Made by a program: the position numbers and the translations under genes. The notes under the pieces were generated by a model that saw only the letters and a list, made by a program, of their open reading frames with translations, was not told the origin of the DNA and ran no database searches. This document shows positions 1,905 to 9,781 of a DNA stretch of 64,000 nucleotides, piece by piece (the stretch's first letter is position 1; every line of letters begins with the position of its first letter). Source of the DNA: Hymenobacter caeli (GTDB taxonomy: Bacteria > Bacteroidota > Bacteroidia > Cytophagales > Hymenobacteraceae). The stretch spans positions 310,001-374,000 of the forward strand of contig NZ_JABSNP010000003.1 of the NCBI RefSeq assembly GCF_013294115.1. The letters run 5' to 3'.

Positions 1905-1996
1905 CACAGCTGCTGCGCCGGCTTAGTGCACGAACTTAGCTGGGGGCCCCAGGCTGGCCGCCAGCTACCTTGGCCACTATTAACAACCCGTTTCGC

Positions 1997-3033
1997 ATGA
2001 ATGCTTTTCCTGCTGCGCCGCGGCTTTCGCGCTCGGACCTGGGGCTGGTGGCCGCCTACTGGCTCGTGGTGGGGCCCATCCTGCTGGTGCAGTACGGGGC
2101 CGATACTGGCTGGGGCTGGGCCCGGACGCTGCCGGTGGTGGGGGCCACGGTGCTGCTGGATACGGCCACGGTGGGCCTGCTGGTAGGCGGGCTGCTGCCG
2201 CTGTTCCTGAACCGGCGGCACTGGCTGGGCCTGGCACTACTGCCCCTGTTTTTGGGGCTGAGCGGCTGGGCTTACGTCAGCGTCTACGGGGCCCTGCTGG
2301 GGCACGCGGCGCCACTGTCGGGGGCGTGGCTGGTGCTCGGGGCCGTGGCCCACGCCAAAAGCTACGGCCTGCTGGCGGTGCTGCTGACCGGCAAGCGCTA
2401 CTTCGAGGCGCAGCAAAAGGTGTTGCAGCTGCGGCAGGCCCAAACAGAGAGCGAGCTGCGCTACCTCAAGGCCCAGATTGACCCGCACTTTCTGTTCAAC
2501 AACCTCAACGTGCTGCGGGGCCTCATCCAGCACGACCCGGCCGAGGCCCACGAGTACCTGACCCGCTTCGCCGCGCTCTACCGTTTTTTGATTCGCCACA
2601 AGGACGACGACTTTGTGACGCTGGCCGAGGAGTTGCAATTCGTGGACGAATACATTTACCTGCTGCGCCACCGCTTCGGGGCGGCCTACGAATTTCGGCA
2701 GGAGCTGCCCGCGGCGGCCGAGCTGCACCGGCTGCTGGTGGTGCCGGGCACGGTGCAGCTGCTGGTCGAAAACGCCATCAAGCACAACGCCGGCGACGAC
2801 GACGACCCGCTGCGCATCACCATCGGGGCCGCCGCTGGGGCCCTAAGTGTATCCCACCCACGCCGGCCCAAGCGCACGGCCGTCGATTCGCTGGGCACGG
2901 GGCTGGCCAACCTGCGCGAGCGGTACCGGCTGCTGGCCGGCCAGGAAATCGCCGTGATGGCCACCGCTGCCACCTTTGCCGTGGCCGTGCCGCTGGTGGC
3001 GCTGGCCCCGGGGCCCCCCAAGCCCGCTGCCCG

Positions 3034-3037
<4 letters not shown>
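1997..3037 (+). CDS. LytS/YehU-type sensor histidine kinase
   Basis: 346 residues from the ATG at 1997; a TTG further upstream is less likely. Four hydrophobic segments fill residues 15-130, followed by a short coiled linker and the His_kinase block QIDPHFLFNNLN with the phospho-accepting His at 164. The N box (VENAIKHN, Asn259) and a G box (GTGLANLRERY, 300-310) show an ATP-binding domain. It overlaps the LytTR regulator by an ATGA, so the two are translated together. The signal is unknown. The layout matches the LytS/LytTR pairs common in Bacteroidota. Confidence 0.9.
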
Positions 3038-5245
<2,208 letters not shown>

Positions 5246-5341: not shown

Positions 5342-5662
5342 ATGAAAATACCCCGGTTTCTGGTGCCCGTGCTGCGGGTGGTGCGCAGCTTTTATTTTCT
5401 TGTGGGCGGGGCGTTTGTGGTGTGGATGCTGGTGTTTGATGCCAACGACATCGGCAAGCAGGTGGACATCTACCGCAAATACCAGGACCTGGTGAGCGAG
5501 AAGCAGTACTACCTCGACAACATCGAGACGGTGAAGAAGGACCGCGCCGAGCTGATGAGTAGCCCCGCGCTGCTCGAAAAATTTGCCCGCGAGAAATACC
5601 TGATGAAGCGCCCCGGCGAGGACCTGTTCATCATGGTGCCCGAGGACGCCGAAGGCAAGTGA
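5342..5662 (+). CDS. FtsB/DivIC-type septum formation initiator
   Basis: 106 residues from the ATG at 5342. A single membrane helix (about 13-31) is followed by a heptad-like coiled coil (35-75) rich in Tyr, Lys and Glu, then the conserved C-terminal pattern KFAREKYLMKRPGEDLF. In E. coli FtsB and Gram-positive DivIC this architecture builds the FtsQLB divisome bridge, with the coiled coil in the periplasm. It sits just after eno and overlaps the next gene by GTGA. Confidence 0.85.
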   Translation: MKIPRFLVPVLRVVRSFYFLVGGAFVVWMLVFDANDIGKQVDIYRKYQDLVSEKQYYLDNIETVKKDRAELMSSPALLEKFAREKYLMKRPGEDLFIMVPEDAEGK

Positions 5663-6295: not shown

Positions 6296-6962
6296 ATGCG
6301 CGGTGCCTTGCTGCTTGGCTGGTTGTGGCTGCTGCCAGCGGTGCTGGCAGCGGGTGGCCCACCTGCGCCGGCCCCCGCTGCCGATACGCTGTTTCTGCGC
6401 TACAAGAACGACGCGCCTTTCGGGCATTATTTTGCTTATTGCCCCGATGCTTACGCTCAGGCTGGCACGGGGCACGGGCGGGGGCGCTGTGGGCGGGGGC
6501 CTGCTGCTGGGCACGGTGGCCGCGCGGCGGCGCTTTAAGCTTTCACTTACAGCTTCTTTTTTGGCACCGGCGAGTGTTTTGTTTAACCACACCGGCCTGG
6601 TCAACATCCACCCAATGAACCCCAACTTCCTCGCCTGGGGCCCGGCCCTGGAAGTGGTTGCGCTGAGCGGGCTGCTCACGGGGCGCTTCCGCCGCCTCCC
6701 GCATCGTGGCCGAGCTGCTGCACAATGCCATCCGCCACGCCCAGGCCCGCCACGTGTGGGTGGAAGTGCTGCGCCAGCCCGCCAGCCTGCGCCTTACCGT
6801 GTGGGACGACGGCCGTGGCTTCGATGCCGAGGGCCCGCCCCCGGCCCGCGGCTGGGCCCGCGCGGCGTACAGGCCCGCGCCGGCTACCTGCGCGGCCAGG
6901 TGGTGGTCAATAGCCGGCCCGGCCAGGGTGCGGTTGTTCGTGTCGAGCTGCCGATATCTTAA
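6296..6962 (+). pseudogene. Decayed 7TMR-DISM-type sensor histidine kinase
   Basis: Pieces of one sensor kinase lie in different frames. Frame 2 from 6296 gives a signal peptide and the start of an extracellular domain. Frame 3 at about 6470-6690 gives transmembrane remnants ending in FLAWGPALEVVALS, which resembles the last helix of a 7TM DISM domain. Frame 1 from 6706 gives the N box ELLHNAIRHAQARH and DDGRGFD. Frame 3 again (to the stop at 6960-6962) gives the G box and the closing SRPGQGAVVRVELP. The coiled coil and the phospho-accepting His region, expected between about 6690 and 6705, are missing. At least three frameshifts plus deletions make it non-functional. It precedes a LuxR-type regulator that was probably its partner. 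Confidence 0.8.
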
Positions 6963-7029: not shown

Positions 7030-7656
7030 ATGCTTTGCCGTTTGATACTCGTGGACGACCACCCGGCCCTGACGCGGGGCTTGGCCGCGCTGTTCGGGCA
7101 AGAGCCCGATTTGGCCGTGGTGGGGCAGTTTGCGAGCGGGGCGGCCTTGCTGGCGCAAGTGCCCGCGCCACCCGCCGACGTGCTGCTGCTCGCCCTGCAC
7201 CTGCCGCCGCCCCACGACGGGCTGGCCCTGCTGCCGCGCCTGCGCCGCGGGTGGCCGGCGCTGCGGGTGCTGGTGTTCAGCAGCGCCACTTCGCCGGGGC
7301 TGGTGGCGCAGGTGGCAGCGGCGGGGGCCCAGGGCTTCCTCGACAAGTCGGCCGAGGCCGACGCTCTGCTGGCCGCCATCCGGGCCGTGCACGCAGGACA
7401 GGTGGTTTTTCCAGCCCACCTGCGGCCGCGGGCCAGTGGCCCGGCGGCCGACGTGCTGCTGCGCTTGCACCAGCTCTCGGCCCGCGAGCGTGAAATGGCA
7501 GGCTTGGTGCGCGAAGGCCTCTCCACCCGCGTTATCGCCGACCGGCTCTCGCTGGCCGAATTCACTGTGAGCACCCACCGCCGCAACCTGATGCAAAAGT
7601 TGGGCGTGCATGGCTTGGCCGAACTGGTGCACTCAGCCAATGAGTATGGGTTGTAA
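7030..7656 (+). CDS. NarL/LuxR-type response regulator lacking the phospho-acceptor Asp
   Basis: 208 residues from the ATG at 7030 (a TTG at 7003 is an alternative). The receiver keeps Asp9/Asp10, the Ser/Thr region (VLVFSSAT) and the Lys of FLDKSA. The residue where Asp should follow the beta-3 strand is Ala55 (VLLLALHLPP; codon GCC at 7192-7194). The C-terminal LuxR helix-turn-helix (LSAREREMAGLV to LMQKLGV) is intact and should bind DNA. The upstream kinase gene is wrecked. The protein is therefore either a phosphorylation-independent regulator or an early stage of decay. Confidence 0.88.
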   Translation: MLCRLILVDDHPALTRGLAALFGQEPDLAVVGQFASGAALLAQVPAPPADVLLLALHLPPPHDGLALLPRLRRGWPALRVLVFSSATSPGLVAQVAAAGAQGFLDKSAEADALLAAIRAVHAGQVVFPAHLRPRASGPAADVLLRLHQLSAREREMAGLVREGLSTRVIADRLSLAEFTVSTHRRNLMQKLGVHGLAELVHSANEYGL

Positions 7657-7784
7657 AGGGGCGGAGTGACCGAAAAATTACCTAAGTGTAGGTATTGTGG
7701 ATTACGATAAATAAAGGAATATTTGTGCATCCCAAGGCGTTGACCTGGCCAGGGCGTTGGGATATAATTTTTCTTCTACTACCT

Positions 7785-8105
7785 ATGAAGCAACAACTTA
7801 CTCATTTTCCCGCAGGGCTGGTGGCCAGGCGGGAATTGCCGGTTTTCTCTTGGGCGTGGCAGTCCCGCACGCCCACTTGGGAAACTGCCTCGGCCGGCGT
7901 TGCTGGCCGGCTGCGGGCCGTGGGCACGGCCACTGGCACCAGCGATGGCTTGTACCGGACTTGGTCCGGCACGGGGCCGTTGTGCATGGGCGGCGTGTCC
8001 ACCACCGGGCCGGCCGGCGTCCGCATGGCCGTGCTGCTGGGCGGCGATGGGCCGGCCGAACAGGCCGCGCCACCCATCTTGCTGCCCGTAAACCCCTGCG
8101 CTTGA
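7785..8105 (+). pseudogene. Probable remnant of an exported protein N-terminus
   Basis: An ATG at 7785 opens a 106-codon frame, but its sequence alternates between frames. The start MKQQLTHFPAG is in frame 3, a hydrophobic signal-peptide-like stretch (GIAGFLLGVAV) is in frame 2, and SRTPTWETA, which resembles the mature start of secreted repeat proteins in this group, is again in frame 3. This suggests a frameshifted signal peptide and a decayed gene. The remaining translation is low-complexity and not recognisable. It could also be a small unrelated gene; confidence is low. Confidence 0.35.
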
Positions 8106-8280
8106 CCGGCTGCCCGGCTTGACCTGCCGTCCGGCGGGCCCGCGCGGTGCCTCCGTTCCCACCTGTTCCCCTGGGCCCCGGGCGTTCTATCCCTGCCGCT
8201 GCTGAGAAAAAACTATCATTCTTGCCGGAGCTGGGCCCCCGTGTGCCTGCCGCTGGGCCGCGGGCCGGCCGCGGCCAGGG

Positions 8281-8451
8281 GCTGGCTGGGCATGGCCCAT
8301 AGTAACTACGGCGGCACCAACAACGCTTACGTGAACCCCAGGCGCCATTGCCGATTCTCGCTACCGTGTGGAGGCTCTTTCGCCCGTGGTTCTCGCGCCG
8401 CCCGTTCCTGCGCCCGAGACCCCTGCGCCGGCCCCGGCCCCGCAGCCTTAA
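8281..8451 (+). pseudogene. Fragment resembling the mature start of a DUF5723-like outer-membrane protein
   Basis: Frame 3 reads AHSNYGGTNNAYVNP (about 8295-8339) and frame 1 continues IADSRYRVEALSP before a Pro/Ala tail and a TAA at 8449-8451. Joined by one frameshift near 8340, the text resembles the first mature residues of DUF5723-type beta-barrel proteins (NPA.IADSRY). The rest of the barrel is absent, so it is a truncated remnant. It lies convergent to anmK, 10 bases from that gene's stop. Family assignment is from memory. Confidence 0.4.
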
Positions 8452-8461
8452 CTCGGGTACG

Positions 8462-9676
8462 CTACCCAGGCCAGGAGATTTTACCCATCGTGACGGCCGG
8501 TACGCGCTGCCGCCCGGCCCCCAGCTCCACCGGCTGGCCCGCCACCGCTTCGTTGGCTAGTACCGCGAACAAAATGGCCTCTTTGGCGTCGGGCGGCACG
8601 CCCAAAACGGCCGTGCTGGCGAAGGCCGCTCCCGGCAAATGGCGGCCCAGGGCCCCCAGCAGCGCCGGGTTGTGCACCCCACCGCCGCTGGTGTACACAG
8701 CCGGCAGCGGGGCCCCGGGCGCGACTACCTGCCGCACGGCCCGCGCCACCCCGGCGGCGCTTAACTCCACTAGCGTGGCCAGGAGGTCTTCCAGGCCCAG
8801 GGCGGCGGTGCCGGATTGGGCCTGGGCGGCGGCCAGGTAGGCGGGGCTGAACAGCTCGGGGCCCGTGGTTTTAGGCAACGGGGCGGTAAAAAACGGGTGG
8901 TCGAGCAGGGCCCCCAGTAGGCCGGGGTGCGCGCGGCCGGCCCGGGCCAGGCGGCCGTCTTCGTCGTAGGCCAGCCCCGGGCGGTGGGCCCGCACGGCGG
9001 CGTCGAGCAGGGTGTTGCCGGGGCCCGTGTCGGTGCTGAAGGCGGCGCGGGCGTCGGCCCCGGCACGGGGCAGGTACGTGAAGTTGGCCATGCCGCCCAG
9101 GTTGAGTAGCAGCCGTTCCTCGGCGGAACTGCTTAGCAGCAAATAGTCGCCGTAAGTAGCCAGCGGGGCCCCTTCGCCGCCGGCCGCCAGGTGCTTCTGC
9201 CGGAAGTCGCTCACGGTGATGATGCCCGTGCCTTGGGCCAGGTGGTCGCCGTCGCCGAGCTGCAAGGTGGCGCTCAGGCCCGCGAAATCGGCCTGCTGGT
9301 GCTGATGGGCGGGCGCGTGGTACACGGTCTGGCCGTGGCTGGCCACGAGGTCCACATCGGCCGGGGCCACCTGCCAGGTGCGCAAGCAATTGAGTAACTG
9401 GCGGGCGTGTAGGCGGCCGAGCCAGGGGTTTAGCAAAGTCAAATATTCGAGGCTAACTTGCCCGCGGGCAAACACCTGCCGGATGCGGCGGCGCACGTCA
9501 TCGTCGTAAGGCACCGTGGCAAAGTGCTCCAGCGCCAATTGCGTGGCCGCGCCGTGGCCCGTGAGGCGGCACAGCGCCACGTCGAGCCCGTCGAGCGAGG
9601 TGCCCGACATCAGCCCCACGATGCGGCGGCTGGGCCGCTGGGCCATTTCGTGGAGGCGGGCAATGGCTGCGTTCAT
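8462..9676 (-). CDS. anmK: Anhydro-N-acetylmuramic acid kinase
   Basis: 404 residues from the ATG at 9676; a TTG 21 bases upstream is in frame but less likely. It phosphorylates 1,6-anhydro-MurNAc recovered from peptidoglycan turnover, giving MurNAc-6-phosphate. The family signature GLMSGTSLDGLDVAL (21-35), VASHGQTVYHAP, LNLGGMANFT, DTGPGNTLLD and TSGGGVHNPALL are all present, and the length is normal. No other recycling genes are adjacent; hscA lies upstream on the same strand, about 100 bases away. Confidence 0.95.
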   Translation of the reverse strand: MNAAIARLHEMAQRPSRRIVGLMSGTSLDGLDVALCRLTGHGAATQLALEHFATVPYDDDVRRRIRQVFARGQVSLEYLTLLNPWLGRLHARQLLNCLRTWQVAPADVDLVASHGQTVYHAPAHQHQQADFAGLSATLQLGDGDHLAQGTGIITVSDFRQKHLAAGGEGAPLATYGDYLLLSSSAEERLLLNLGGMANFTYLPRAGADARAAFSTDTGPGNTLLDAAVRAHRPGLAYDEDGRLARAGRAHPGLLGALLDHPFFTAPLPKTTGPELFSPAYLAAAQAQSGTAALGLEDLLATLVELSAAGVARAVRQVVAPGAPLPAVYTSGGGVHNPALLGALGRHLPGAAFASTAVLGVPPDAKEAILFAVLANEAVAGQPVELGAGRQRVPAVTMGKISWPG

Positions 9677-9781
9677 TCTTGCGCCTTTAAGAACCAATAT
9701 TCCAGTACAAAAACAGTTTTGTGCCGGAATGTACTTTAGCGTTGGGCTTGAAAGCGCCGTGTCTGCCCGCTACTGCGGTCT

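Follow-up and report, generated by a model that had tools for sequence, protein, structure and literature searches.

Gene content of the locus

The window analysed in this work is a stretch of 64,000 nucleotides of the Hymenobacter caeli genome (C3:310001-374000 of an assembly of 4.98 Mb in 45 contigs, referred to below as G000). Its forward strand carries, at 7030-7656, a NarL/LuxR-type response regulator of 208 aa with alanine at residue 55, which was identified by translation, by Pfam, and by alignment to orthologues and to NarL and DevR. The frame runs from an ATG at 7030 to a stop at 7654-7656 and is open over all 208 codons, free of the disabling mutations by which a pseudogene would be recognised. 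Pfam recognised Response_reg (PF00072) at residues 6-118 (63.8 bits, cut-off 30.2), followed by the GerE/LuxR domain (PF00196) at residues 148-203 (63.4 bits, cut-off 23.5), and this is the order of receiver and GerE helix-turn-helix found in NarL/LuxR-type regulators. Two further features of such regulators are missing: the phospho-acceptor Asp at the end of beta-3 is replaced by Ala55, and in the place of an adjoining cognate histidine kinase there are only remnants, at 6296-6959. With a PF00072 match and no acceptor Asp, the protein has the makeup of an aspartate-less receiver.

The phospho-acceptor position and its orthologues

Codon 55 (7192-7194) reads GCC, with C at base 7193 in the assembly. 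In phmmer alignments Ala55 fell in the Asp column of the NarL and DevR PDB chains, whose aligned Asp residues we take to be the phospho-acceptors. The initial annotation had reported Ala at this residue, one base from GAC, and had described the other receiver residues and the LuxR domain as intact. Translation and the orthologue alignment bore out the first statement, and the second held on inspection of the protein, in which D9, D10, a Ser at the T/S position, F103 at K-3 and K106 are kept, all tested landmarks other than position 55 are present, and both Pfam domains score above their cut-offs. Two other aspartates were considered as acceptors and rejected: in the orthologues D50 is matched by D, N or S and D63 by the usual 'DG', and the acceptor Asp occupies a column separate from both. 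The alignments were thus searched for another Asp at the site, and none was found that could take the place of Asp55.

The regulator was searched against 120 genomes of Hymenobacter, its own included, with matches listed to about E = 5e-30. These matches fell into two groups, one at 54-82% identity and the other at 45% or below, and we placed the cut for orthologues between them. Among the matches listed, the 54-82% group consisted of 37 loci in 36 other genomes, two of them in G097 and one, in G013, truncated (65% identity across residues 3-133). Comparison of position 55 across orthologues, as had been suggested at the outset, gave Asp in all 37 listed orthologous loci, encoded by GAC in 32/37 and by GAT in 5/37; by these alignments Ala55 is therefore private to the window genome among the genomes searched, and lies one transversion from the common codon. 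Two more distant aligned loci, L055 and L056, have Asp as well. Where the window regulator differs in length from its close relatives, which is after residue 44 and within the linker, the reading frame is preserved. No second copy of the regulator was found in G000 at the sensitivity used, the next best of the matches listed being 42% identical (C5:19020).

An orthologue at the 54-82% level was present, among the matches listed, in 36 of the 119 other genomes of the genus, leaving 83 without one, which argues that the regulator system is dispensable in the genus. One of the orthologous loci is itself broken: in L053 (G013:C1:5806600-5813600) the regulator ends after about residue 130 and the kinase frame breaks at residue 613, and these breaks may be sequencing errors in G013 or a second, independent decay.

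The upstream kinase

The remnants at 6296-6959 (+) amount to about a third of a full-length kinase gene. Eleven translated full-length kinases of relatives measured 642-679 aa (counting the stop), and in the intact kinase of G077 Pfam recognised 7TMR-DISMED2 at 68-182, 7TMR-DISM_7TM at 202-415, HisKA_3 at 448-514 and HATPase_c at 560-650. Gaps and deletions in the window were placed by eye on nucleotide alignments with four relatives. The first remnant, F1 (6296-6472), corresponds to orthologous residues 1-59, the N-terminal end, and by tblastn was 48-56% identical to the kinases of G047, G077 and G048 and 37% identical to that of G070. The junction that follows (6473-6545) is assigned a 1-bp gap near 6467 (alignment-dependent), a large deletion (about 0.8 kb, near 6525/6526), which takes most of the extracellular and 7TM domains, and a TAA at 6536-6538, in frame (frame 3) with the surrounding kinase piece. 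F2 (6546-6692) covers residues about 366-417, the end of the 7TM domain, and contains a 2-bp gap at about 6572. A second large deletion of about 0.42 kb, with its junction at 6690-6694, spans residues about 418-559 and takes out HisKA_3 in its entirety. F3 (6691-6837) holds residues about 561-608, the first part of HATPase_c, at 58-78% identity to five relatives, and F4 (6852-6959), which follows a 4-bp gap at about 6851 and reads in another frame, holds residues about 608-650, where HATPase_c ends, at 56-70% identity to five relatives. All of these features lie on the forward strand.

Six disabling changes are thereby counted in the kinase, namely two large deletions, the stop and three small frame-breaking gaps, and with HisKA_3 wholly deleted the remnant is incapable of histidine kinase work. 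The initial annotation had described this gene as being in pieces, and four remnants with broken frames and no HisKA_3 substantiate the description. Its further suggestion, that the regulator had lost its partner, also stands: the deletions take HisKA_3 and the greater part of the sensor, what is left is frame-broken, and no relocated intact kinase or second copy was found at the sensitivity used in G000, where the best matches besides the four pieces were 32-37% identical.

In relatives the kinase is in place. When orthologous loci were checked for an intact kinase, as had also been suggested, a kinase reading covering HisKA_3 was found directly upstream of the regulator in 37/37 of those listed; the upstream span inspected for 29 loci (L002-L030) was about 1.0-1.5 kb. 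The C-terminal kinase frame breaks in 2/37 loci (G017 and G013), and G060 has a second, frame-broken kinase match at the N-terminal part. At the G017 locus (L004, G017:C108) the end of the kinase reads in three frames beside a regulator with Asp, and the break lies in a GC-rich stretch shared with one of the breaks in the window.

Downstream and neighbouring genes

A fragment of the gene that follows the regulator in relatives, of DUF5723 type, was recognised near 8259-8361 (8223-8361 at its widest; +; 28 aa at 71%, 98 bp at 82%). The gene stands after the regulator in G078, G080 and G057; it was identified as DUF5723 by Pfam in G078, the copy tested, and the G057 match contains one in-frame stop. 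In G047, G048, G017 and G070 a match at 58-64% is found elsewhere in the genome, with in-frame stops in G047 and G048, and G000 itself has two matches elsewhere, both on C14, at 30-33%. G077 and G104 gave no match at E <= 1e-5, and since both keep an intact kinase and a regulator with Asp, the idea that the DUF5723-type gene was a lost target whose disappearance accounts for the rest is not supported. Between the regulator and anmK (7700-8460), no further match to the downstream genes of relatives that were tried was recognised. anmK itself (8462-9697) is an open frame with its Pfam domain present. Elsewhere in the window, a regulator named from its sequence as LytTR-type (3034-3819) has Asp by eye and lies beside a histidine-kinase-like gene at 1970-3037.

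Codon substitution rates

Rates were estimated under a branch codon model with F3x4 and kappa, in which the terminal branch of G000 had its own omega and all other branches shared a second. For the regulator, four samplings gave a branch dN/dS of 0.12-0.15 against a background of 0.08-0.11: 0.154 vs 0.077 with 10 sequences (p = 0.06), 0.130 vs 0.094 with 14 (p = 0.36), 0.149 vs 0.086 with 11 (p = 0.14) and 0.119 vs 0.112 with 5 (p = 0.85). In this dN/dS calculation, which the initial annotation had proposed, the regulator is well below 1 (p = 2e-5 with 10 sequences) and in none of the four samplings significantly above background. Taken by domain, omega was 0.113 vs 0.089 in the receiver part (10-sequence run, p = 0.65) and 0.177 vs 0.061 in the linker and LuxR part (p = 0.03, uncorrected for several tests).

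The kinase pieces gave 0.274 vs 0.152 with 10 sequences (p = 0.054), 0.265 vs 0.114 when F1 was omitted (p = 0.025, uncorrected for several tests) and 0.217 vs 0.100 for F3 and F4 alone (p = 0.12). In the 10-sequence runs both regulator and kinase pieces thus stood at roughly double their background. Two neighbouring genes used as controls, with 4 sequences each, were not raised: anmK at 0.058 vs 0.053, and a gene of 106 codons at 5342-5659 at 0.044 vs 0.091. On four other branches the regulator gave 0.051, 0.062, 0.081 and 0.077, and the kinase codons gave 0.281 (G070, with an intact kinase), 0.092, 0.190 and 0.166. Rough 95% profile ranges were about 0.08-0.32 for the regulator and about 0.16-0.49 for the kinase pieces, and these overlap.

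Neither signal was accepted as proof. The intact G070 kinase reaches 0.281 over the same codons, on a par with the wreck in the window, so that a raised kinase omega is a weak and unspecific sign of decay. A low dN/dS does not prove function either, as kinase pieces that are certainly dead show 0.27 on the same branch, presumably because most of that branch predates the loss.

Decay or retention

The likeliest account, which we hold as probable by a modest degree, is ordinary gene decay and no new mechanism, in which the window gene is a recently orphaned, unphosphorylatable regulator that is fading. The principal alternative is a possibility we rate clearly lower: the regulator would have stayed useful after the loss of its kinase, in a fixed state or under some other input, leaving Asp55 free to change while the rest remained selected. 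The two were compared with a decay model in which a fraction f of the branch is neutral, evaluated on a grid of f. A shared f of about 0.10 for regulator and kinase gave lnL -7145.81, an equally parameterised model in which the regulator was never neutral and the kinase was free gave -7147.42, and a separate f for each gene gave -7145.65. Shared, recent decay is thus mildly preferred over full retention, by 1.6 log units. The initial annotation had offered two outcomes, a regulator locked in one state or one fading after the loss of its partner, and these are the appropriate pair to weigh; this difference weakly favours fading, though the rate of the regulator on its own does not differ significantly from background, and locking in one state is plausible as chemistry.

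Several observations speak for retention. The frame is open with both domains above their Pfam cut-offs, and dN/dS on the window branch is significantly below 1, though the latter is an average over a long branch. The open frame is weak evidence: of random substitutions in the regulator frame only 1.5% introduce a stop, and the probability that it would contain none after 0.2 neutral substitutions per codon is 0.54. Small disabling changes number 0 in the 627 bp of the regulator vs four in about 660 bp of kinase remnant, a split with a chance of about (661/1288)^4 = 0.07 under equal exposure. Across the 36 other full-length orthologous loci 43 columns are invariant, and at these the window protein shows just 3 changes (L44V, D55A and F202S); the truncated G013 locus and two paralogues were left out of this count. 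The receiver landmarks tested are kept apart from Asp55. Among the other 36 loci, 24 have 0 such changes, 10 have 1 and 2 have 2, and when the count was confined to the 14 closest sequences the window protein had 4 and the other 13 ranged from 0 to 9. As proof of relaxation this count was set aside as weak, since the window genome lacks a close sister among the sequences compared and its number of changes is thereby inflated. Against retention stand the 1.6 log units and the raised dN/dS of the linker and LuxR part, where retained DNA binding should impose the strongest constraint and where F202S lies.

Alanine at the acceptor site is also known from FrzS, a characterised aspartate-less receiver cited as an example of one that can keep its fold (PMC4395418), and the window protein could likewise be stable, even with a retained role. 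The fullest version of retention, which we consider rather doubtful, is a regulator turning phosphorylation-independent, its kinase lost, its acceptor changed to Ala, and the rest selected and still regulating genes. If this were true, the intact pairs of close relatives would represent the 'before' state of a transition to a phosphorylation-independent regulator.

Proposed history of the pair

Under gene decay, the account we prefer, the ancestral pair would have consisted of a LuxR-type regulator and, adjoining it, a HisKA_3-type 7TM-DISM sensor kinase by which Asp55 was phosphorylated. Late on the branch to the window species the kinase would have been ruined by the two large deletions, the stop and the three small frame-breaking gaps, and the regulator would have lost its acceptor Asp through one base change. 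What remains would be a regulator that probably still folds and possibly binds DNA, with no switching by phosphorylation at site 55, and its gene would be a relict that has yet to meet a stop or a frameshift. In NarL-type regulators the unphosphorylated receiver keeps the LuxR domain in an inactive arrangement, which by analogy makes off, and not constitutively on, the likeliest state of the window protein.

The reverse order, in which Asp55 was lost first and a kinase without a substrate decayed later, appears improbable; the kinase carries far more lesions than the regulator, which, without being decisive, is easier to accommodate if the kinase went first. If base 7193 were wrong through base calling or assembly, the living strain would have a normal Asp; a single base would be enough for this, but it is the least probable reading of all. 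The six disabling changes of the adjoining kinase, which include two large deletions, make a setting that the loss of the acceptor fits. The assembly has a completeness of 99.75% and contamination of 0.16%, and it is improbable that a substitution error would hit exactly the key codon.

The 37 listed loci with Asp and an adjoining kinase reading define the ancestral state well, which makes gene decay at this locus a small, clean example of a two-component pair coming apart. The locus also shows a plausible route by which an aspartate-less receiver arises. The general picture is unchanged, and plain gene loss is the likeliest outcome.

Comparison with known systems

Receivers without the acceptor Asp make up about 4% (as aspartate-less receivers, ALRs) by one survey and about 6% (as pseudo-receivers, PsRs) by another (PMC12632262). 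In the ALR survey, Ala accounts for 9% of the substitutions and there are about two ALRs per bacterial genome (PMC4395418). A Pfam search of G000 found at least 58 receiver domains, with Asp in 56 and Ala in 2; this number is a lower bound, as the LytTR-type regulator of the window is absent from the Pfam receiver list. Two Ala receivers among 58 agrees with the published rates. The second of them (L119, G000:C10:122260-122604) lies in an open frame of 388 aa and has Pro in the place of Lys; it is a natural pseudo-receiver, resembling ordinary receivers such as C10:114420 and C17:6022.

With the NarL/FixJ-type regulators NarL, DevR/DosR and VraR the window protein shares the receiver and GerE domains, its best solved-structure matches being DevR and NarL, and it differs from them in having Ala for the acceptor Asp and a partner kinase in pieces. 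The remnants upstream match, piece by piece, the kinase of relatives, a 7TMR-DISM kinase with HisKA_3 and HATPase_c; unlike such kinases, they come to about a third of the length, are frame-broken and have no HisKA_3. Aspartate-less receivers and pseudo-receivers resemble the window protein in being recognised by PF00072 without an acceptor Asp. The window protein keeps both acidic residues, whereas the second of these is acidic in only 29% of ALRs (PMC4395418), and what sets it apart from ALRs and PsRs is that its Ala is one change, private to it, in a family where Asp is otherwise kept, and stands beside a wrecked kinase.
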